32,356 nt of DNA from an uncultured Ruminococcus sp. (GTDB taxonomy: Bacteria > Bacillota > Clostridia > Oscillospirales > Acutalibacteraceae): the NCBI GenBank assembly GCA_902793125.1, contig CADBCC010000030.1, positions 1-32,356 on the forward strand, read 5' to 3'. The translations under genes and the position numbers were made by a program. The notes beneath the pieces are model-generated. The model had not been told where the DNA came from. It was given only the letters and a program-made list of their open reading frames with translations, and ran no database searches. Each line of letters begins with the position of its first letter. Position 1 is the stretch's first letter. Shown here piece by piece: positions 19,620 to 29,974 of this stretch.

Positions 19620-21386
19620 ATGAATAATAATGTAATTTTCGGTATTAACGGACCTGTAATTACGGTTAAAGGCAAGACCGAATTTAAAATGATGGAAATG
19701 GTACATGTCGGAAAGGAAAACCTTGTAGGCGAAATTATCGGCATTACCGACGATTATACTACGGTTCAGGTTTACGAGGAGACCACCGGACTTAAACCCG
19801 GCGACCCGATTACGGGTACAGGAAATCCGATGAACGTACTTTTAGGTCCCGGTATACTTGATAATATGTACGACGGAATCGAGCGCCCGCTTAAGGCGAT
19901 TGAAAAAGAATCCGGCGCGTTTATTAGCCGCGGTTCCCAGGTTAACGCTTTAGATTCCGAGAAGCTTTGGAACGTTACTTTAAAGGTTAAGCCCGGCGAT
20001 AAACTTAACGCGGGAGAAATTTACGCGACAATTCCCGAAACACAGATTATCGAGCACAGACTTATGGTTCCTCCCGAAATTTCAGGAGAGATTACCGAAG
20101 TAATGCCTGACGGCGAATACAAAATCTTTGATACCGTAGCAAAGATAAAAGACGAATACGGCGAGATTCACGAGCTTACTCTCTGCCAGAAATGGCCTAT
20201 ACGTTTTTCCCGTCCGATTGAAAAAAGACTTCCCACAACTGTTCCGCTTATTACGGGACAGCGTACAATGGATACAATGTTCCCGATTGCCAAGGGCGGT
20301 ACCGCCGCTATTCCGGGCGGTTTCGGCACAGGTAAAACAATGAACCAGCACCAGTTAGCTAAATGGAGCGACGCGGATATTATTGTTTACGTCGGCTGCG
20401 GAGAACGCGGAAACGAGATGTCGCAGGTACTCGAAGAGTTTTCAAGCCTCGTTGACCCGAAATCCGGACGTCCGATGACCGATCGTACAGTTCTTATAGC
20501 AAACACATCCAATATGCCCGTTGCCGCGCGTGAGGCTTCTATTTACACGGGAATTACCCTTGCGGAATATTACCGCGATATGGGTTACGACGTAGCTATT
20601 ATGGCGGACTCCACTTCACGATGGGCTGAGGCTTTAAGAGAAATTTCGGGACGACTTGAAGAAATGCCTGCCGAGGAAGGCTTCCCCGCTTATCTTCCGT
20701 CGAGACTCGCGGAATTCTACGAAAGAGCCGGACGAGTAAAAACTCTCTCCCACGACAGCGGTTCGGTTACAATTATCGGAGCGGTTTCACCGCAGGGTTC
20801 GGACTTCTCGGAACCCGTAACTCAGAACACAAAGCGTTTTACACGTGTATTCTGGGCTCTTGATAAAGCGCTTGCGTACGCGAGACACTACCCGGCTATT
20901 AACTGGATGGATTCATACAGCGAGTATTTTAACGATCTGGATCCCTGGTTTAACGAAAATATCGGTCCCGACTTTGTAGAATGCAGAAACAGATTTTCCG
21001 CCCTTTTACAGGAGGAAAACTCTCTTATGGAAATCGTAAAGCTCATAGGCTCCGACGTACTCCCCGACGACCAGAAATTAGTTATTGAAACAGCTAAGTT
21101 AATTAGAGTGGGATTTTTACAGCAGAACGCTTTCCACGCGGAAGATACTTACGTTCCGCTTGAAAAACAGCTTAAAATGATGCAGGTTATTCTGCATTTG
21201 TACGATAAATCGAAAGAAGTAATATCGAAAGAAATTCCTATTTCAAAACTTCTTGCTACAGGAATTTTTGATAAGCTTACTAAGATTAAGTACGATATTC
21301 CGAACAACAAGCTTGAGATGTTCGACGACTATAATAAAGAAATCGACGAAAAGATAGATAAAATACTTACAGACACTATAATCTAA
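19620..21386 (+). CDS. ntpA: V-type ATP synthase catalytic subunit A
   Basis: A 588-residue catalytic subunit of the V1 head. The P-loop is at 233-240 (GGFGTGKT; more often GPFG in the family), the catalytic glutamate is in GERGNE (E262), and the ADSTSRWAEALREISGRLEEMP block is at about 329-350. The non-homologous region that distinguishes V-type A from F-type beta (about 110-190) is present. It is full length. The start has only a weak ribosome binding site (GTGAG), which fits coupling to the upstream ntpE. Confidence 0.96.
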   Translation: MNNNVIFGINGPVITVKGKTEFKMMEMVHVGKENLVGEIIGITDDYTTVQVYEETTGLKPGDPITGTGNPMNVLLGPGILDNMYDGIERPLKAIEKESGAFISRGSQVNALDSEKLWNVTLKVKPGDKLNAGEIYATIPETQIIEHRLMVPPEISGEITEVMPDGEYKIFDTVAKIKDEYGEIHELTLCQKWPIRFSRPIEKRLPTTVPLITGQRTMDTMFPIAKGGTAAIPGGFGTGKTMNQHQLAKWSDADIIVYVGCGERGNEMSQVLEEFSSLVDPKSGRPMTDRTVLIANTSNMPVAAREASIYTGITLAEYYRDMGYDVAIMADSTSRWAEALREISGRLEEMPAEEGFPAYLPSRLAEFYERAGRVKTLSHDSGSVTIIGAVSPQGSDFSEPVTQNTKRFTRVFWALDKALAYARHYPAINWMDSYSEYFNDLDPWFNENIGPDFVECRNRFSALLQEENSLMEIVKLIGSDVLPDDQKLVIETAKLIRVGFLQQNAFHAEDTYVPLEKQLKMMQVILHLYDKSKEVISKEIPISKLLATGIFDKLTKIKYDIPNNKLEMFDDYNKEIDEKIDKILTDTII

Positions 21387-21398
21387 GGAGGGAACGCT

Positions 21399-22772
21399 AT
21401 GTTAATAGATTATGTAGGCGTTAAAGAAATTAACGGCTCACTCATCGTAATAGACGGCGTAAAAGGCGTTTCCAACGAGGAAATCGTCGATATCCGTCTT
21501 GAGAACGGAACAATTCGCCAGGGTAGAGTCGTTCAGATTGAGGGCGAAAGAATTGTTGTACAGGTTTTTGAAGGTACAAGAAACATAAGCCTTGTAAACG
21601 CTAAAGTAAGACTTACGGGTCACCCGATGGAGCAGCCGCTTTCACCGGAGATTATCGGACGTGTGCTTGACGGCGCCGGTCGTCCCGCTGACGGTCTCGG
21701 AGATATTTATCCCGAAACCCGTCGAAATATAAACGGTACTCCGATTAATCCCGTATCGAGAGTTTATCCGACCAACTATATTAATACAGGTATTTCTACG
21801 ATTGATACTCTTATGACTCTTATAAGAGGCCAGAAACTCCCGATTTTCTCGGGTTCGGGTATGAAGCATAATGATTTAGCTGTACAGATTGTACGCCAGG
21901 CTAAAATTTCAGGAGCTACCGAAGATAATTTCTGCGTAGTTTTCGCCGCGATGGGTGTTCAGAAAGACGTCGCGGAATACTTCAGAAAAAGTTTCGAGGA
22001 AAGCGGAGTTCTTTCCCACGTTGTAATGCTTTTAAATCTTTCGAGCGACCCGATTATCGAGCGTACACTTACCCCAAGATGCGCGCTTACAATTGCCGAG
22101 TATTTAGCATTTGACCTCGATATGCACGTACTCGTTATTATGACGGATATGACTTCATATGCCGAGGCGCTTCGTGAGTTCTCGTCCTCAAAGGGTGAAA
22201 TCCCGGGACGTAAGGGTTATCCCGGATACCTTTACTCCGACCTCGCTTCCATTTACGAAAGAGCGGGTATGATTAAAGGCCACGACGGTTCGGTTACTCA
22301 GATTCCGATTCTTACGATGCCGAATGACGATATTACACATCCTATCCCCGACCTTACCGGTTACATTACCGAGGGCCAGATTACTTTGGACCGTTCTTTA
22401 CAAGGCCAGGGCTACTATCCGCCCGTATCGGTACTTCCTTCGCTTTCGAGACTTATGAAGGACGGTATCGGCGAAGGATTTACAAGAGCCGACCACCAGG
22501 CGCTCGCGAATCAGCTTTTCGCGTCTTACGCAAAGGTAATTGACGCGAGATCGCTCGCTTCGGTTATCGGCGAAGAGGAGCTTTCCCCTGTTGATAAAAA
22601 ATATATGGAATTCGGAAAGCTTTTCGAAACCCGCTTTGTAAATCAGGGATTTAACGAAAACCGCGACATCACAGAAAGTCTCGACCTCGGATGGGAGCTT
22701 CTTTCGACATTACCGAGAAGCGAACTCGACAGAGTTGACGACGAGCTGCTCGATAAATATTACAAAGGATAA
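21399..22772 (+). CDS. ntpB: V-type ATP synthase regulatory subunit B
   Basis: A 457-residue non-catalytic partner of subunit A in the V1 hexamer. The P-loop position holds a degenerate SGSGMKHND motif in place of GKT, as is normal for [40 protein letters not shown] carries conserved nucleotide-interface residues. AAGGAGGGA precedes the ATG. It lies 12 bases after ntpA. Confidence 0.96.
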
Positions 22773-22787
22773 AAAGAGGTTTTTATA

Positions 22788-23411
22788 ATGGCAGTTCAGG
22801 CTGTGCCTACCAAGGGCAATCTGATGAATACAAAAAAATCTTTGTCTCTCGCCAGGATGGGATATGAGCTTATGGATAAAAAGCGTAATATCCTAATCAG
22901 AGAGATGATGATGCTTATAGATAAGGCGAACGAAATTCAGGGGAAAATCGACAAGACCTACGACGAAGCTTACTTCGCTTTGCAGGCCGCGAATATTATG
23001 CACGGTTACTGTCTCGATATAAGTAAGACAATTCCTGTTGAAAATTCGCTTACGCTTGATTACCGCTCGGTTATGGGGGTTGAGATTCCGATTATAAAAA
23101 TGGACGATCCAAACCGAAGCGAACTTCACTTCGGTCTGAATTCAACAAGCACAGCGCTTGATAACGCTTTCCAGAAATTTACCGACGTTAAAATTCTTAC
23201 GGCGGAGCTTGCGGAAATTGAAAACAGCGTTTACCGCTTAGCCGATTCAATCAAAAAAACTCAGAAACGCGCGAACGCTCTGAAAAACATTATGATTCCG
23301 AAATTTGAGGAAACCGTTAAATATATTTCCGACGCGCTCGACGAAAAAGACCGTGAAGATTTTTCAAGAATGAAAGTAATTAAAAGACAAAAAAGTAAAA
23401 AGAAAAGTTAG
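22788..23411 (+). CDS. ntpD: V-type ATP synthase subunit D (rotor shaft)
   Basis: A 207-residue two-helix rotor subunit. The N-terminal VPTKGNLMNTKKSLSLARMGYELMDKKRNILIREMM is the family hallmark, and the C-terminal helix is long and basic. The middle (about 85-140) is the short globular part. It is the last gene of the V-ATPase operon, ending at a terminator. Confidence 0.94.
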   Translation: MAVQAVPTKGNLMNTKKSLSLARMGYELMDKKRNILIREMMMLIDKANEIQGKIDKTYDEAYFALQAANIMHGYCLDISKTIPVENSLTLDYRSVMGVEIPIIKMDDPNRSELHFGLNSTSTALDNAFQKFTDVKILTAELAEIENSVYRLADSIKKTQKRANALKNIMIPKFEETVKYISDALDEKDREDFSRMKVIKRQKSKKKS

Positions 23412-23449
23412 AAAAAAGGCGTTACGCGAAATGCGTACGCCTTTTTTTG
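23412..23449. terminator. Terminator between the V-ATPase operon and the ECF operon
   Basis: AAAAAAGGCGTTACGC pairs with GCGTACGCCTTTTTTT with one bulge; T-tract on plus and A-tract on the left for the minus-strand operon, so it can end both. Confidence 0.85.
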
Positions 23450-23465
23450 TAATATAAAAATATAT

Positions 23466-24140
23466 TTATATTCCGTATTTTGTTTTCAGCCGTTCAATTT
23501 TCTTTTCGAAAAGCGGAACGAGTATAATCAGGAAAATAATATTGGAAACAATATATTTAACCGTTACGGGCAGGGCGGTAATTACGGCGCCGAAAAACCT
23601 TTCAATATTAAAATATCCGTCCATCCAGAGAACCGTCCAGACATCCATCATAAGCGAGTAAAAAACGCCCGCTAACGCTCCGTAAACTATGAGTAAGATT
23701 TTACTTTTAATAAGCGGACTCGAAAGCAGTCCGGCAATAAAGCCGATTATTCCCCAGGAAAACATCTGAAACGGAGTCCACGCACCCTGGCCGAAATAGA
23801 AATTGGATATAAACGCGGAAAGCGCTCCGGTTAAAAATCCGAACTCCGCGCCGAAATACATTCCCGCGATTACAACCATCGCGGTTACGGGTTTAAAGAA
23901 AGGAACAGGAGCAAATATAAATCTTCCCGCTGCGGAAAGAGCCGTCATCACCGCTAATAATACGATTTTTCTTGTTGAGTTATTCTTTTTTTCAAAGCTG
24001 AGAAAGAAAGGTACGCACGAAAGAAGCACCGCAATCAGCGACACAAACGCGTAGCTCCGTTCGGGATAAAAACACGCCCCTGCTATTATAAGCAGCGGAA
24101 TCAGTAAAAGAATTACTACATATTTTAAATATTTTTTCAT
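23466..24140 (-). CDS. ECF transporter S component, probable cobalamin/corrinoid binder
   Basis: A 224-residue integral membrane protein with about six helices, the substrate-binding part of an energy-coupling-factor importer. Typical S-component features are a short basic N-terminus, AGRFIFAPVPFFKPVTAMVVIAG and AEFGFLTGALSAFISNFYFGQG in the core (about 72-118), and WTPFQMFSWGIIGFIAGLL. Its start overlaps the ecfA stop by four bases. Family alone does not give the substrate. Because the operon is under a cobalamin riboswitch and includes transcobalamin-like proteins, cobalamin or another corrinoid is the best inference, functionally like CbrT. Confidence 0.85.
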   Translation of the reverse strand: MKKYLKYVVILLLIPLLIIAGACFYPERSYAFVSLIAVLLSCVPFFLSFEKKNNSTRKIVLLAVMTALSAAGRFIFAPVPFFKPVTAMVVIAGMYFGAEFGFLTGALSAFISNFYFGQGAWTPFQMFSWGIIGFIAGLLSSPLIKSKILLIVYGALAGVFYSLMMDVWTVLWMDGYFNIERFFGAVITALPVTVKYIVSNIIFLIILVPLFEKKIERLKTKYGI

Positions 24141-25711
24141 TTTTCCTCTTTTAATTCACTAATCAATTCATCCGCGGTTACGGCGCTGCCTCCTGTTGCG
24201 CAGGAAATCTTCGCCGCGGGAGTAGTAAAGAAAATATTATTCATAAAAAAGCTTTTCGCGCCGCGCTCACTCGTAATTTCGCCGTCAAAAAGAAGTCCGC
24301 ACCTGTCTGAAAACTCAGCGGCAAATTCCAAATCATGAGTAACAAGAATAATAGTTAATCCGTTTTCGGTCAGATTTTTTAGGAATCCGCCGAGTTCTTT
24401 TTTAGAGAAACTGTCGAGACCTTTTGTGGGTTCGTCAAGCAGAATTATATCAGGCTTAGTCAAAAGAACTTTTATTATTGCGGCGCGCTGGAGTTCTCCC
24501 CCGCTTAAATCGTACGGATGTGTATTAACATATTTTTCGAGACCGAAACGTTCCAATAATTCTAAATAGGAATTATTTATCGATTTCAAATCTTCCTCAA
24601 GGTTATCTTTAACAAAAACATTTTTCGGATTCTGCGGAAGATAAGCGACCTTGGAGGCGCACTTTATTTTGCCTCTGTAAGGCTTTAGCGAGCCGTTTAG
24701 CAGATTAAGGAGTGTAGACTTTCCGCTGCCGTTTTCGCCTAATACAGCGTAAATCTCGCCTTTTTTCACATTTACAGAAAAATTCTTCAGAATATCTCTG
24801 CTGTTTTTTTGGTATCTGAACCAAAGATTTTTAGCGGATAAAATAACTTCTTTTCTATATATTTCGTTTAAAGAATTATAGTTGCTTTTTATATTATTTT
24901 TATTAAGGAAAGAAATTGCGTCCTTAACCGTTACGGGACATTCGCCGTCTAAGTTAAAACAGTTAAAAATCCTTACGGGTACAGGGAGAGTTTTTTCAAT
25001 TTCCTTTCCCCTGACGCTTTGATATATTTCATTTATAGAATTAACCGCGGTTAGTTTTCCGTCTTCAAGTAAGGCGACTCTATCGGCAAACTTAAAAACA
25101 TCCAAGAGATGATGCTCGGCTATAATAATCGTTGTACCGAATTCATCATTTATTTTTTTAAGGGAATTTATAAACTTTTCGGCAAAGATAGGATCGATCA
25201 TTGAGACAGGCTCGTCGAGAATAATAACTTCGGGATTCATCACCATTACCGAAGCTAAATTCAGAAGCTGTTTCTCCCCTCCCGACAGCGAATCGGTTTT
25301 TCGCTCAAACATATAAGATAAACCGAAAAAATTAGCGAACTCCGCTACTCTCGCGCGTATTGTTTCTTTATCATATCCTATATTTTCAAGTCCGAAAGCA
25401 AGCTCGGAATACACCTTATCGGTAACAATCTGGGATTCAACATCCTGCATTATGAAACCGATTTTTGAGGCGGTTTCCATAGAATTATAATCAGTTATCT
25501 TTTTTCTTTTAAAGAATATTTCTCCTTCTGATTTGCCGAAGGGAGTAAGCTCCTTTTTAAGCATTTTTAACAGAGTGGTTTTACCGCAGCCCGACTGTCC
25601 GATTAAAAGCAGGAACTCTCCTTTTTTTATTTCGAGATTGATGTCTTTAAGGGCGGGAGAATCGGAAGCGTTATACGTAAAGCTCAGATTTTTGAGACTG
25701 AAAATTTCCAT
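24137..25711 (-). CDS. ecfA: ECF transporter ATPase, two ABC domains fused
   Basis: A 524-residue protein with two complete ABC ATPase domains, equivalent to EcfA1 plus EcfA2 in one chain. Domain 1 has Walker A at 38-45 (GQSGCGKT), signature LSGGEKQ at 142-148, Walker B VIILDEP at 162-168 and an AEHH switch at 198-201. Domain 2 has Walker A at 325-332 (GENGSGKS), signature LSGGELQ at 402-408, Walker B IILLDEP near 422-428 and THD near 458-460. It drives import by hydrolysing ATP. The start (AAGGAGGGGATAAT before ATG) lies 28 bases inside the end of ecfT. Both sites look catalytically intact. Confidence 0.93.
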   Translation of the reverse strand: MEIFSLKNLSFTYNASDSPALKDINLEIKKGEFLLLIGQSGCGKTTLLKMLKKELTPFGKSEGEIFFKRKKITDYNSMETASKIGFIMQDVESQIVTDKVYSELAFGLENIGYDKETIRARVAEFANFFGLSYMFERKTDSLSGGEKQLLNLASVMVMNPEVIILDEPVSMIDPIFAEKFINSLKKINDEFGTTIIIAEHHLLDVFKFADRVALLEDGKLTAVNSINEIYQSVRGKEIEKTLPVPVRIFNCFNLDGECPVTVKDAISFLNKNNIKSNYNSLNEIYRKEVILSAKNLWFRYQKNSRDILKNFSVNVKKGEIYAVLGENGSGKSTLLNLLNGSLKPYRGKIKCASKVAYLPQNPKNVFVKDNLEEDLKSINNSYLELLERFGLEKYVNTHPYDLSGGELQRAAIIKVLLTKPDIILLDEPTKGLDSFSKKELGGFLKNLTENGLTIILVTHDLEFAAEFSDRCGLLFDGEITSERGAKSFFMNNIFFTTPAAKISCATGGSAVTADELISELKEEK

Positions 25712-26535
25712 ATTATCCCCTCCTTAATTTCGAAAATAAAAGGTATAAATGATAAAACTAAAAATGAAAAATAACTTATACAATTAAGCAAGCTTAAATC
25801 GGGAAATATAAATTCCGGATAATAGGTAAAAGACGTTCTTCCGATAACTGTTAAAATGAAAAGCACGGCTGAGATAATCAGTAAAAATAAATCGGTCGGC
25901 GTAAATTTAAAGCGTGAGTAAAAAGTTTTATGTTTAAGCAAATAACCCCGGGCGTTCATACTGTCGGAGGTTATTACAGCGTTTTCCATACTTTGCGTTA
26001 TTACCGCGGAGAAAGAGTTTAGATATCTTTTTAAACGGTGGTTTTTAAGGAGCAGTTTTTGCGAAGTATTTACGCTTCGGAAAGTTTTTATAAAATTCGG
26101 AATAAAACGTAAAGTCATAGAAATTACAAGAGCGGTTTTCGGGCTTATTTTCCCGAAAAGAAAAATAATCTTTTCGCTGTCAAAAATAAGATTAAAACAT
26201 TTAAACCAAAAAATAACCTCAACAACCGCGAGCGCGAGTACCGCGCCGTAAATTAAAGCTTCGAGCGTAACGCGGTTATCGTTTATAAAAAACAATACCG
26301 TCTTTCCGTTATGCGAAAACAGCGGATTCAGTACCGCTACGGCTAAAAAAATCAAAAGATAAAAAATTATTGATTTTAAAATATTTTTCTTTTCAAGAAT
26401 TAAAAAACAATAAGAAAGCGCTCCCAACATTCCCGAAGTCAGATAAATAGGATTAAAAGAAAATATTGAGATAAATAATACAAAAATAAAATATGAAATT
26501 AAAAAGTACGGATTAAGGTTTTTAAAACTGTTCAT
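25684..26535 (-). CDS. ecfT: ECF transporter transmembrane coupling subunit
   Basis: A 283-residue EcfT that transmits movement from the ATPases to the S component. Membrane helices lie near 10-45, 53-70, 88-112 and 212-270. The cytoplasmic coupling region (about 140-200) includes ISMTLRFIPNF and ends with the SMNARGY motif (ARG at 195-197) used to contact the ATPase. It overlaps the upstream lipoprotein gene by four bases and ecfA by 28. Having its own EcfT in the operon makes this a dedicated (group I-like) ECF transporter, not one borrowing a shared module. Confidence 0.9.
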   Translation of the reverse strand: MNSFKNLNPYFLISYFIFVLFISIFSFNPIYLTSGMLGALSYCFLILEKKNILKSIIFYLLIFLAVAVLNPLFSHNGKTVLFFINDNRVTLEALIYGAVLALAVVEVIFWFKCFNLIFDSEKIIFLFGKISPKTALVISMTLRFIPNFIKTFRSVNTSQKLLLKNHRLKRYLNSFSAVITQSMENAVITSDSMNARGYLLKHKTFYSRFKFTPTDLFLLIISAVLFILTVIGRTSFTYYPEFIFPDLSLLNCISYFSFLVLSFIPFIFEIKEGIIWKFSVSKI

Positions 26536-27005
26536 TCTTTATACTTATTACCGATATCGGCGCCTAAATCGCAGGTATAAAGCCAGCGGATTTCATCGCC
26601 GTTTTTAAGCTTAAAGGCATTACAGCCTACATTCGGAAATTTTCCGTTTACGCTGTATTCCCAACCCGAAAGATCACCACAGTCGAATTCATAAAGGTAG
26701 TCTATCCCTTTAATGTAAATACTGTCCGCGCTTCCGGAATACTCAAAATGGATTTTATTATTTTTACAGGCGTTTTTAAACGCGGTATAGACTGTATCTC
26801 CTTTTTTAAAGGACATTTTATAATCTTTAAGAATAGCTGCTTTTTTTCGTTTTGAGTTTTTATATTTTACGGCTGTTTCACAATTAATTGAAATTTTTGC
26901 CGTTAATTCTCCCGAATCGGTATTTTTATAGTATTCATCGGGAGTTTTTATTGAACATGATGATAAAAGAAAAATCAGAAGTATAAGGATAATAGTTTTT
27001 TTCAT
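26532..27005 (-). CDS. Lipoprotein with DUF4430 (transcobalamin C-terminal-like) domain
   Basis: A 157-residue surface lipoprotein. A signal peptide ends in lipobox LSSC with Cys17 lipidated. Residues about 65-150 form a DUF4430 domain: KGDTVYTAFKN..., then GWEYSVNGKFPNVGCNAFKLKNGDEIRWLY at about 114-143. The Pfam family is named for similarity to the C-terminal beta domain of transcobalamin and intrinsic factor, which closes over the lower part of bound cobalamin. It overlaps the genes on both sides (4 bases each). In this operon it would be the beta half next to a separate alpha half (27002-28384), close to the transporter at the membrane. Cobalamin binding itself is inferred. Confidence 0.87.
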   Translation of the reverse strand: MKKTIILILLIFLLSSCSIKTPDEYYKNTDSGELTAKISINCETAVKYKNSKRKKAAILKDYKMSFKKGDTVYTAFKNACKNNKIHFEYSGSADSIYIKGIDYLYEFDCGDLSGWEYSVNGKFPNVGCNAFKLKNGDEIRWLYTCDLGADIGNKYKE

Positions 27006-28384
27006 TTTTTACCTCCCGATTTTATCGAAAAAACTATAATATAACCCGCTAAAAGGATAACCGCGTTTATATACTGCGGGTAATTTTCAGTAGGTTTATT
27101 TGGTTTTTTATTCTTCTTAGATTCGGATACAGGTTTTTCTTTTTTTATTATTTCAGCGGATTGTACAGCATTTTTTACTGTTTCGGTTTTTTTATTCTTT
27201 TTTAATTTTGGTTTTGTTTCTTTTTTATTATTTTCTATATTAGAATTATAATCAGGTTTTGAAGCGGTTTTTTTGAAGTTGGTTTTTTTATTATTTGAAG
27301 AAGTTTTTATTTTTTTCTTATGCTTAACGGACGCTTTATTAATCTTTTTATCAACTGATTTTGTAGTGGATTTAACTTTTGCTTTAAAATCGTAAAAAGA
27401 CGCGTTACCGCTTAAAAATCTGTACGAAGCTACAAGCGCGCAAAGGCTCTGGTAGGTTGCGATATTATTTACGGATAAGTCAATCATATGGCGAAATCCG
27501 CCTGAAGAAGTTTTAAAGCAGTTCAGCCCGTCTAAAGGGGTGTTTCCGTTTTGGATAAAGCGGCTGTCGGAGGACGGATTAATACCAAGCGAAGTAAGCG
27601 CAATAATAACCTGAGCGGTGGACTCGGCGGTTATTTTCCCGGAAAAGGACTTAAACGCTCCGCTTTCATCCTGACGTTTTTCGAGGATTTTAAGACAGCT
27701 TTCGATACTGTTTTTTACCTTTAATTTACTTTTATAAGGCGCTAACGACTGCAATACTATTGAAGTAATATCAATATCCGCTCCTTTTCCGAATAACGCG
27801 TAACCGCCGTTTTCGAGTTCAAACGAGAGAATTTTTTCAATTATTTTTTCACGGTCTGTTTTTGAATCTTTCGGGACCGGATAACCTTTTGAATCTAAAA
27901 GCAAAAGCGCGTAACACAGAGAGTTAACTCCCTGCGAATCAAGCTCCTTATATTTTTCGCGATTATAAGTAGCGTCCGCCAAAAGGTTATGACCGTTTAC
28001 GTCGGTAATATCCTCTTTACAGGCTGTAAGAGCTAAAGCTGTCCGCTGCATATCGGTTACTTTTACATTTTCAAGTCCTTTTTCATAAAAAGAGTTAACA
28101 GCATTTTTCAGCGCGTTTATACTCTTTTCGTTCTTGCAGTTGATTCCGTACTGAGACAGGGCTATATAATACCAGTCGGAGCTGTAATCGCCCGCGTTTT
28201 CGCTTAGTTTATCAAGCAGTTCAAAGGTTGATGAGCATTTTAATGAGTTTGTTTTATATAAAATTACACCCTCGACGGAGTTTTTTACGCCGCCGAGAGT
28301 GTTAATATCCGAACAATAGGCGGTAAAAGGTGCAGTTACAGCGAGTAAAACCGAAGCAATAACCGCAATAAACCTTTTACACAT
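27002..28384 (-). CDS. Membrane-anchored alpha/alpha-toroid protein, transcobalamin N-domain-like
   Basis: A 460-residue extracellular protein. It has a signal peptide (about 1-24), then an alpha/alpha-barrel of prenyltransferase/squalene-oxidase-type repeats (about 55-330). Repeat-like helices include MQRTALALTACKED, NSLCYALLLLDSKG, DIDITSIVLQSLAPY and STAQVIIALTSLGINP. Residues about 335-435 are an extremely Lys-rich, low-complexity stalk. A C-terminal membrane helix (about 437-454) with a basic tail anchors it. Human intrinsic factor and transcobalamin have this toroid as their N-terminal cobalamin-binding domain. No prenyltransferase active-site logic is expected for a secreted protein. 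AAGGTGAG precedes the ATG; it lies 12 bases after the previous gene and overlaps the next by four. Confidence 0.86.
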   Translation of the reverse strand: MCKRFIAVIASVLLAVTAPFTAYCSDINTLGGVKNSVEGVILYKTNSLKCSSTFELLDKLSENAGDYSSDWYYIALSQYGINCKNEKSINALKNAVNSFYEKGLENVKVTDMQRTALALTACKEDITDVNGHNLLADATYNREKYKELDSQGVNSLCYALLLLDSKGYPVPKDSKTDREKIIEKILSFELENGGYALFGKGADIDITSIVLQSLAPYKSKLKVKNSIESCLKILEKRQDESGAFKSFSGKITAESTAQVIIALTSLGINPSSDSRFIQNGNTPLDGLNCFKTSSGGFRHMIDLSVNNIATYQSLCALVASYRFLSGNASFYDFKAKVKSTTKSVDKKINKASVKHKKKIKTSSNNKKTNFKKTASKPDYNSNIENNKKETKPKLKKNKKTETVKNAVQSAEIIKKEKPVSESKKNKKPNKPTENYPQYINAVILLAGYIIVFSIKSGGKK

Positions 28385-28396
28385 ATTCTCACCTTA

Positions 28397-29638
28397 TTAT
28401 TTTACTTTTACTTTAATTTTCAGCTTATATCCGCCGTTGGTTGTAACCGTAATAGTAGCTTTACCCTTCTTTTTGGCGGTAATTTTACCCTTTTTGCTTA
28501 CCTTAGCTACGGACTTTTTGGAAGACTTATACTTCTGTGTTCCCGCTTTTCCGGTAATCTTAATCTTAAAAGTTTTACCCTTTTTAAGAGTTATTGACTT
28601 CTTATTAAGCTTGGGATTTTTTACGGTGACTTTAAATTTCTTTGAAACACCGTTATTTTTAACTGTGATAGTAGCTGTACCCTTTTTTCTCGCGGTAACT
28701 TTTCCGCTCTTGTTAACGGAAGCGATACTCTTTCTGTTGGAAATATAAGATGTTTTTCCTACAGGGTTCTTTATTTCCGCGTTTATTTTAAATGTCTGGC
28801 CGCGATAAAGAGTTTTATCGGCGGGTACGGAAACAACGGTATCTTTGCTTTCTGTAGTCGGCGGAACTTCTGTAACAGGTTCGGTTACGGGCGCTGTGGG
28901 CTCAACTGTAGCGGGCTGGGTTTCACCCGAAACAGCCCCGAGTGCGAAATTATAACCCTTAGCGAAGCGTAATACCTGCGGAGCGCCTTTATCGGAGTAT
29001 TTACTTATCTGCGCGTATACTGTATCGTTTTCTTTAAACTTGGAACGGTCGAAATTAACAATACCGTTTTCATCGGATGTATATTCATATTCATTTAAGC
29101 TGAGCTTAGCGCCTGCTACGGGAGCCCAGTCGGAAGTTGACTTCCATTCGCCCAGCTCATCCTGATACCATACGCTGTCGTAGCTTTGTACTTTTATTAC
29201 GCCGTTTTCGACGTCCTTTAAATCAAGAACGGGAACCTGGCAGGGATAGTCGCCGTAAAACAGCACAACGCTGTCGCCGTCTTGAAGCTTATAATCATTA
29301 ATTCCGATATCGGGAACTACTCCGTTTACGCTGTAATACCAGCCGGCATAATCTCCGTACTGTCCTGATTGTTCACCGTTAACTGAACTAATGTAGTTAT
29401 CGGCAATTCCCTCGATTGTAATTGATTCATCGTTGTCGCTGATGTATTGCAAAGCTTTTCCTACGGTGTACTCAATCGGATCGCTGCCTTCGGATGAAAT
29501 ATCCAGGTTACTGTCGTAAATGTTTTTAGTTACACCTTCAATTCTGACACTAAACGAGAGTGCAGACGCCGAAGCGGCGATTACGAAGATAGTTGTAAGA
29601 AGCGCCGCAACAAGCGCTAATGAAATTATTTTTTTCAT
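28397..29638 (-). CDS. Secreted DUF4430 protein with two basic Ig-like domains
   Basis: A 413-residue secreted protein, first gene behind the cobalamin riboswitch. It has a signal peptide (1-26, ending ASASA) and a DUF4430 domain at about 55-130 (AGWYYSVNGVVPDIGINDYKLQDGDSVVLFYGDY). A middle domain (about 135-225) is unassigned. A Pro/Thr linker (about 238-264) leads to two bacterial Ig-like group 2 modules (about 265-340 and 343-413). Each module has a KSIASVNKSGKVTARKKGTATITV-like block and is very rich in Lys. I see no LPXTG motif or membrane anchor, so it is either released or held on the anionic wall by its basic modules. The start is ATG 29638 (MKKIISLAL) behind AAGGAGGATA; a longer frame to 29701 would read through the terminator hairpin and is rejected. 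Confidence 0.88.
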   Translation of the reverse strand: MKKIISLALVAALLTTIFVIAASASALSFSVRIEGVTKNIYDSNLDISSEGSDPIEYTVGKALQYISDNDESITIEGIADNYISSVNGEQSGQYGDYAGWYYSVNGVVPDIGINDYKLQDGDSVVLFYGDYPCQVPVLDLKDVENGVIKVQSYDSVWYQDELGEWKSTSDWAPVAGAKLSLNEYEYTSDENGIVNFDRSKFKENDTVYAQISKYSDKGAPQVLRFAKGYNFALGAVSGETQPATVEPTAPVTEPVTEVPPTTESKDTVVSVPADKTLYRGQTFKINAEIKNPVGKTSYISNRKSIASVNKSGKVTARKKGTATITVKNNGVSKKFKVTVKNPKLNKKSITLKKGKTFKIKITGKAGTQKYKSSKKSVAKVSKKGKITAKKKGKATITVTTNGGYKLKIKVKVK

Positions 29639-29654
29639 TTTATCCTCCTTAAAT

Positions 29655-29677
29655 GAAAAAATGCCCACTTTGGGCAT
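29655..29677 (-). terminator. Riboswitch-controlled intrinsic terminator
   Basis: In the leader of the cobalamin operon, ATGCCCA/TGGGCAT forms a 7-bp stem with loop AAG, then TTTTTTC, five bases before the ribosome binding site. TTGGGCA (29708-29702, minus strand) just after the aptamer is complementary to TGCCCAA (29676-29670) in the terminator 5' arm and can serve as antiterminator. Confidence 0.8.
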
Positions 29678-29714
29678 ACAAAATATAAACCGCGTCTCCA
29701 TTGCCCAAGCACAG

Positions 29715-29880
29715 TTTTAGTACGAGTACGGCAGGTCTCCCGGCTTACATCATATATTACAAAGCGCCTTCCCGAAAACTCAGTGGCATAATGCTTTCTT
29801 TAAAATGAACACGGTAATGGCTGTTGCGGCGGACTTTAACCGCCTTCCCTATTAATTCCCGCGAAACCGTACAAGTTTTA
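29715..29880 (-). promoter_or_regulatory. Cobalamin (B12) riboswitch
   Basis: Read on the minus strand, the leader contains the B12 box TAAGCCGGGAGACCTGC (29747-29731). It is preceded by the conserved GCCACTG and CGGGAAGGC blocks (about 29793-29764) and by GGGAAGGCGG and CCGCAACAG further 5'. A closing helix GTACGG (29872-29867) with CCGTAC (29731-29726) frames the aptamer. These match the cobalamin riboswitch family, which usually turns B12 uptake or synthesis genes off when cobalamin is abundant. It lies directly after a consensus promoter and before a terminator. Confidence 0.93.
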
Positions 29881-29889
29881 TTTTTTTAG

Positions 29890-29918
29890 ATTATAACATA
29901 TTTACTGTAATAAAGCAA
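29890..29918 (-). promoter_or_regulatory. Proximal sigma-A promoter of the cobalamin operon
   Basis: TTGCTT (29918-29913) and consensus TATAAT (29895-29890), read on minus, are 17 bases apart. The expected start near 29883 coincides with the 5' edge of the riboswitch. Confidence 0.8.
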
Positions 29919-29937
29919 GATACTTTTATTCGTGCTT

Positions 29938-29966
29938 ATTATATCAACCAAATCATTAATTGTCTA
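29938..29966 (-). promoter_or_regulatory. Possible distal promoter of the cobalamin operon
   Basis: TAGACA (29966-29961) and consensus TATAAT (29943-29938), read on minus, are also 17 bases apart, 48 bases upstream of the proximal promoter. It would add a 5' extension before the riboswitch. Confidence 0.5.
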
Positions 29967-29974
29967 TTATAAAG

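Follow-up and report, generated by a model that had tools for sequence, protein, structure and literature searches.

A riboswitch-controlled Ruminococcus operon that probably couples intrinsic-factor-like corrinoid capture to a CbrT-type importer

In the Gram-negative Bacteroidetes, vitamin B12 is captured by the established surface binders BtuG and BtuH, which differ from the proteins considered here; for Gram-positive gut bacteria, little is known about B12 capture ahead of the membrane pump. In excerpts of published studies, CbrT is a binder and transporter of both cobalamin and cobinamide (PMC5997447), and a B12 transporter goes by the names CbrT, CbrU and CbrV (PMC8123684, PMC6593275, PMC6722938, PMC9306216), one of the latter four placing cbrT and cbrV in Ruminococcus genomes. 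The vertebrate B12 carriers have a DUF4430 domain at the C-terminus, according to an excerpt of PMC4350170. Thus CbrTUV, a lipoprotein of a cobalamin energy-coupling factor (ECF) transporter and DUF4430 in vertebrate carriers are already published; searches of an open-licence library listed no paper describing bacterial DUF4430 or toroid proteins as B12 binders, which is weak evidence of absence, most subscription papers lying outside that scope. The window analysed here (32,356 nt of an uncultured Ruminococcus sp.; GCA_902793125.1, contig CADBCC010000030.1, positions 1 to 32,356, forward strand) carries a minus-strand operon of six genes behind a cobalamin riboswitch, which is probably a B12-repressed system for scavenging corrinoids, with a capture module akin to intrinsic factor that supplies an ECF importer of the CbrT type. 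The genes, the riboswitch, kinship to CbrT, beta-domain homology, recurrent fusion and genomic context form the basis of this reading; from them we infer corrinoid binding, the two-chain sandwich, the hand-over and the roles of both DUF4430 proteins.

The initial annotation had proposed a cobalamin riboswitch ahead of six packed minus-strand genes, and RF00174 and Pfam searches recovered every part (Table 1): a DUF4430 protein with immunoglobulin (Ig)-like repeats (D1), an alpha/alpha-toroid protein, a DUF4430 lipoprotein (D2), EcfT, a duplicated ECF ATPase and an S component. By their coordinates, the genes are separated by a gap of 12 nt at the first junction and overlap by 4, 4, 28 and 4 nt at those that follow. 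The aptamer lies above the curated RF00174 gathering score of 31.5 bits and is the sole cobalamin riboswitch detected in its genome; its place directly ahead of the genes bears out the proposed B12 control. A hairpin between the aptamer and the ribosome site is the likely expression platform, and this placement suggests that the riboswitch acts through transcription termination.

The dedicated ECF importer that had been proposed was likewise found, with EcfT and two ECF ATPase domains present in the operon (Pfam, NCBIfam) and an S component whose closest solved structure is 6fnp_A. A profile built from 26 homologues of the S component matches 6fnp, which we take to be the ECF-CbrT structure, at 4.8e-31 and its next match at 1.9e-4. 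Because the S component is nearest to the CbrT structure and CbrTUV has already been published, the pump is, as judged from sequence, of a known kind, a CbrT-type ECF importer. In one clade of related loci (L106-L110, L114-L117, L130, L141), a single open reading frame (ORF) of about 870-950 residues encodes EcfA fused to the S component. The genome, which is 97.56% complete, contains one match to the B12-binding family PF02310, in a protein that also has homocysteine methyltransferase and pterin-binding domains and is therefore MetH. A Pfam search of the genome gave no match to PF01717 (MetE), PF01032 (FecCD/BtuC-type permease), PF01923 (PduO type), PF02654 (CobS) or PF01888 (CbiD). No other candidate B12 importer was found in this genome, with missing sequence or undetected families possible.

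The pairing of riboswitch and DUF4430 recurs widely. Among 98 genomes, the window's own included, 84 have DUF4430; RF00174 is found in 60 with a threshold of E 0.001 and in 52 above the curated score. For 53 of 67 RF00174 matches (nine of the 67 score below the curated value), a DUF4430 match follows on the same strand at no more than 12 kb; less than one such pairing is expected by chance if a 2-Mb genome carries about two DUF4430 genes. Pairing is seen for 36 of 39 riboswitches in the genus and 17 of 28 in the rest of the order, and in the reverse direction a riboswitch stands upstream of 75 of 130 DUF4430 matches. Of 80 loci from relatives, 47 include a toroid and 39 the full gene set. In a sample of the phylum (299 genomes), DUF4430 is present in 91 and RF00174 in 280. 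Twenty loci were taken from it among the matches listed, one from each of 20 other families, picked by DUF4430 and biased to strong matches. RF00174 is found in 16, always upstream of the first operon gene and on the same strand, and two of the four loci without it (L259, L263) reach contig ends; a toroid is found in 17, EcfT, EcfA and S component together in 15, and toroid, DUF4430 and ECF set in 14. The co-occurrence of DUF4430 and toroid genes with B12 riboswitches and ECF genes, for which the initial annotation had proposed a survey, is observed. The D profiles also cover Ig-like repeats, so that some genes marked D in the maps may lack DUF4430. One related locus also contains an S-adenosylmethionine (SAM) riboswitch (L116:10750-10844, minus strand).

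Natural fusions of the toroid and DUF4430 domains also occur, with either domain first or with several copies in longer proteins, and some are present in named Ruminococcus flavefaciens strains; in a genome scan with fused proteins as queries, 76 of the 78 loci among the matches listed have an ORF shared by toroid and DUF4430. A set of 75 fused homologues served to model one fused relative, L201:6004-7623 (predicted local distance difference test, pLDDT, 90.5; predicted template modelling score, pTM, 0.68). Structures of transcobalamin, intrinsic factor and haptocorrin fill ranks 1-15 of its Protein Data Bank (PDB) matches (E 3.7e-8 to 2.7e-6), in alignments of more than 500 columns that span both domains; rank 16 is a terpene cyclase (2.9e-4), and the isolated transcobalamin beta domain (5no0) matches at 1.6e-3. 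Because the animal carriers are, to our knowledge, the only PDB proteins with a toroid and a DUF4430-type domain, this ranking supports the architecture and not the ligand. Furthermore, a profile of 38 DUF4430 proteins, D2 included, matches 3u7z at 1.2e-17, haptocorrin (4kki) at 6.5e-5 and the transcobalamin beta domain (5no0) at 0.0042, and its near-invariant tryptophan aligns with a tryptophan of the carriers. It is possible, and is advanced here tentatively, that bacteria own true relatives of the animal carriers, in the form of an alpha/beta corrinoid clamp that is a single chain in many relatives and, in the window, two separately anchored proteins closing over a corrinoid at the cell surface and handing it to a CbrT-type importer, the animal family sharing ancestry with them or deriving from them. 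If so, gut bacteria would compete with the host for B12 using the same kind of carrier.

In the toroid-DUF4430 fusion, a short basic loop lies between two hydrophobic helices, so that both domains are expected outside the membrane. Separate DUF4430 proteins start within or just past this loop, and the helix that serves them as signal or anchor aligns with the second one; the C-terminal hydrophobic helix of the window toroid (residues 437-455) would correspond to the first. An AlphaFold2 model of this toroid (pLDDT 78.3) has, in addition, a signal-like N-terminus and a lysine-rich linker of low confidence; the lipobox-like start of D2 matches LPAM_1 at 18.5 bits, under the cut-off of 20. The beta partner of the toroid could be D1 or D2, both being present and fusions occurring with either. 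The arrangement was also mapped on an EcfT tree with 69 proteins, for which 17 of 134 rows, lacking a toroid state, were dropped and 24 were sampled from the 72 toroid-DUF4430 rows. On it the four toroid/DUF4430 states require eight changes; the starred branches force five for the 'split' state, an approximate number, since some loci labelled, for instance, 'Tor>D' or 'D>Tor' may have been read incompletely. The window locus belongs to a starred clade of 13 split loci.

Conservation points to toroid residues T207 (152 of 152 aligned rows), D205 (149 of 152) and H299 (137 of 148), together with W115 of D2 (216 of 219), as candidate ligand contacts, some proteins contributing more than one row. 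The cobalt-binding histidine of transcobalamin is given as His173 in an excerpt of PMC4947154; the conserved toroid H299 is not claimed as its equivalent.

Extra domains in the nine proteins scanned include dockerin, S-layer homology and Ig-like repeats. In one clade, toroid proteins end in a dockerin type I domain (L105:8540-11992, L107:9998-11899, L108:1562-3640, L109:9962-11890), which would anchor these putative B12 binders to a surface resembling a cellulosome. Another protein (L069:2307-5411) combines two toroid stretches, DUF4430 and three S-layer homology domains.

If the operon does capture corrinoids, scarcity of B12 would lead the riboswitch to permit read-through of the terminator into the six genes. 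The toroid and D2, held outside the membrane by a C-terminal helix and a lipid anchor, respectively, would then form the alpha half and the beta half of a binder like intrinsic factor or transcobalamin, with the corrinoid held between them before being handed to the CbrT-like S component, whose uptake of it into the cell would be driven by the EcfT-EcfAA motor. D1, probably attached to the wall, would be a further module and may gather corrinoids or pass them on, and the imported vitamin would serve MetH.

Several results weigh against this reading. The L201 model differs from the carriers by a root-mean-square deviation of about 10-15 A and, at its pTM of 0.68, leaves domain placement uncertain, and profiles of the fused proteins match terpene cyclases by sequence via the toroid, not B12 carriers. 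When the window toroid was modelled alone, the best 50 of 769 fold matches included no B12 carrier; its matches are generic toroids (GH105 hydrolases, terpene cyclases, prenyltransferases), and no Pfam match to the B12-carrier alpha domain was found in it or in 14 fused proteins. DUF4430 loci without a toroid (24 of 80 among the relatives, 3 of 20 in the phylum) indicate that the toroid is not always needed. Finally, Pfam places the S component in a riboflavin ECF family with a score above the cut-off. The claimed likeness to intrinsic factor and transcobalamin is supported by the natural fusions, the fold of the fused relative and the DUF4430 homology; the fold search with the window toroid alone did not support it and is the strongest result against it for this protein.

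The toroid is also where the stronger of two alternatives differs. In it, only the DUF4430 proteins would meet the corrinoid, as accessory lipoproteins, and the toroid would be a scaffold or act on the wall, on polysaccharide or on a foreign B12-carrier protein. The fold matches of the window toroid, which include carbohydrate-active and prenyl-binding toroids, are in line with this, as are the riboswitch-DUF4430-S loci without a toroid (L082, L102, L103, L112), the order nrdJ-cbrS-cbrT-pduO in an excerpt on Lactobacillus delbrueckii, and an L. rhamnosus protein labelled, in an excerpt of PMC9963975, as an additional lipoprotein component of the cobalamin ECF transporter. The repeated fusion of toroid and DUF4430 and the two-domain fold match to the B12 carriers argue against it, and we consider it unlikely. 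It is highly improbable that the B12-controlled operon imports a related cargo (cobinamide, a lower-ligand base, another vitamin) in place of cobalamin. The riboflavin and folate families that the S component matches in Pfam and NCBIfam (in NCBIfam below the cut-off) speak for it, as does the point that a riboswitch is no proof of what is imported; but no other solved S component comes nearly as close as 6fnp, DUF4430 is homologous to a domain of the B12 carriers, and MetH is present in a genome in which no CobS was found to complete cobinamide.

Other loci depart from the pattern. RF00174 without DUF4430 accounts for 14 of the 67 matches; 11 lie outside the genus, some ahead of unrelated genes. 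For the three within it, one contig stops 84 bases beyond the riboswitch (G034), one locus has a toroid and an ORF matching the D1 profile (G055, L096), and one has an ORF that matches the D1 profile only and nothing in Pfam (G058). Conversely, ten loci have no RF00174 match (L122-L127, L129, L130, L133, L134). L125 alone among the ten has an AdoCbl-II riboswitch (RF01689) above the curated score. A search at a permissive threshold, which covered four of the ten, gave AdoCbl (RF01482) matches, all below the curated score, directly upstream of the first DUF4430 gene in L122 (E 0.0044) and L123 (0.0041), with marginal ones at the same place in L133 (0.11) and L126 (0.26). Nine named loci, eight from R. 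flavefaciens and one from Pseudoruminococcus, all have a cobalamin-clan match directly upstream of the first gene; four are AdoCbl-II above the curated score and five fall below it (E 6e-5 to 0.005). These sub-threshold matches are suggestive. Homologous loci under other control had been named as a finding that would count against the proposal, and loci without RF00174 were considered as such counter-evidence; this was rejected for the several that carry matches to other cobalamin-clan models ahead of the first gene, some sub-threshold. Minimal loci also occur, in which a riboswitch accompanies a DUF4430 gene and a CbrT-like S gene with no toroid or ECF motor genes nearby (L082, L102, L103, L112; the L103 S component matches 6fnp at 2.6e-5), and in five further small DUF4430-S loci of this make-up (L134, L136-L139) no riboswitch was detected.

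The promoter-like site and the two hairpins of Table 1 add to the initial annotation. The region is no richer in promoter-like sites than shuffled sequence, and the listed site is a consensus match only. A longer ORF for D1 begins at 29701; because an AGGAGG ribosome site precedes 29638, the start at 29638 is favoured. Convergent with the operon lie V/A-type ATPase genes (19620-23411, plus strand; Pfam ATP-synt_ab twice, ATP-synt_D) with no sign of a B12 link, and a PADLOC search for defence systems gave no match.

Table 1. Features of the operon and its flanks, in the direction of transcription (window positions).
Feature	Position	Strand	Evidence
Promoter-like site TAGACA-17-TATAAT, TG ahead of second hexamer	29938..29966	-	11/12 consensus bases
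Cobalamin riboswitch aptamer	29713..29886	-	RF00174, 92.7 bits, E 5e-22, whole model covered
Terminator-like hairpin between aptamer and first gene	29661..29677	-	7-pair stem, then T run
D1, secreted DUF4430 protein with C-terminal Ig-like repeats	28397..29638	-	Pfam: DUF4430 8.1e-14, Big_2, Big_3
Alpha/alpha-toroid protein	27002..28384	-	Prenyltrans 1.7e-6, 28.1 bits (cut-off 26.5)
D2, DUF4430 lipoprotein	26532..27005	-	DUF4430 2.3e-20; lipobox-like LLSSC
EcfT (CbiQ family), transmembrane component	25684..26535	-	PF02361 1.7e-6
Duplicated ECF ATPase, both ABC domains in one chain	24137..25711	-	Two ABC_tran stretches; TIGR04520 326.6 bits (cut-off 315)
CbrT-like ECF S component	23466..24140	-	Pfam ECF match 1.2e-15; 6fnp_A 5.3e-8
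Terminator-like hairpin 3' of last gene	23423..23437	-, also +	Hairpin search

If the toroid and DUF4430 proteins bind corrinoids, DUF4430 would gain a function, there would be an explanation of how Ruminococcus and many more Clostridia scavenge B12, and the animal B12 carriers would be tied to bacterial proteins. The natural fusions in named R. flavefaciens strains make the proposed capture directly testable.

Compared with known systems, the operon resembles BtuG and BtuH in placing surface capture of B12 ahead of a pump, and the permease of a BtuCDF-type importer (FecCD/BtuC) is without a match in its genome. With intrinsic factor, transcobalamin and haptocorrin it shares an alpha/alpha-toroid, generic by its Prenyltrans match and its fold, and a homologous DUF4430-type beta domain; by sequence, the Pfam search did not place the window toroid in the alpha-domain family of these carriers. 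The animal proteins join toroid and beta domain, in that order, in one chain, whereas the window has two chains and many relatives one, and unlike the carriers the window proteins have membrane or wall anchors and are linked to an ECF importer. D2 shares its DUF4430 domain with 3u7z (Ruminococcus gnavus RUMGNA_00854), crystallised as a 101-residue chain without a toroid and labelled a putative metal binding protein, which may instead be a B12-uptake lipoprotein. The closest likeness of the pump is to ECF-CbrT and CbrTUV, in its CbrT-like S component, EcfT and ECF ATPase, and a lipoprotein gene is annotated next to a lactobacillal transporter of this kind in a table of PMC9963975. Unlike CbrTUV, the window operon joins its ATPases in one chain and adds, under a riboswitch, a toroid and two DUF4430 surface proteins.

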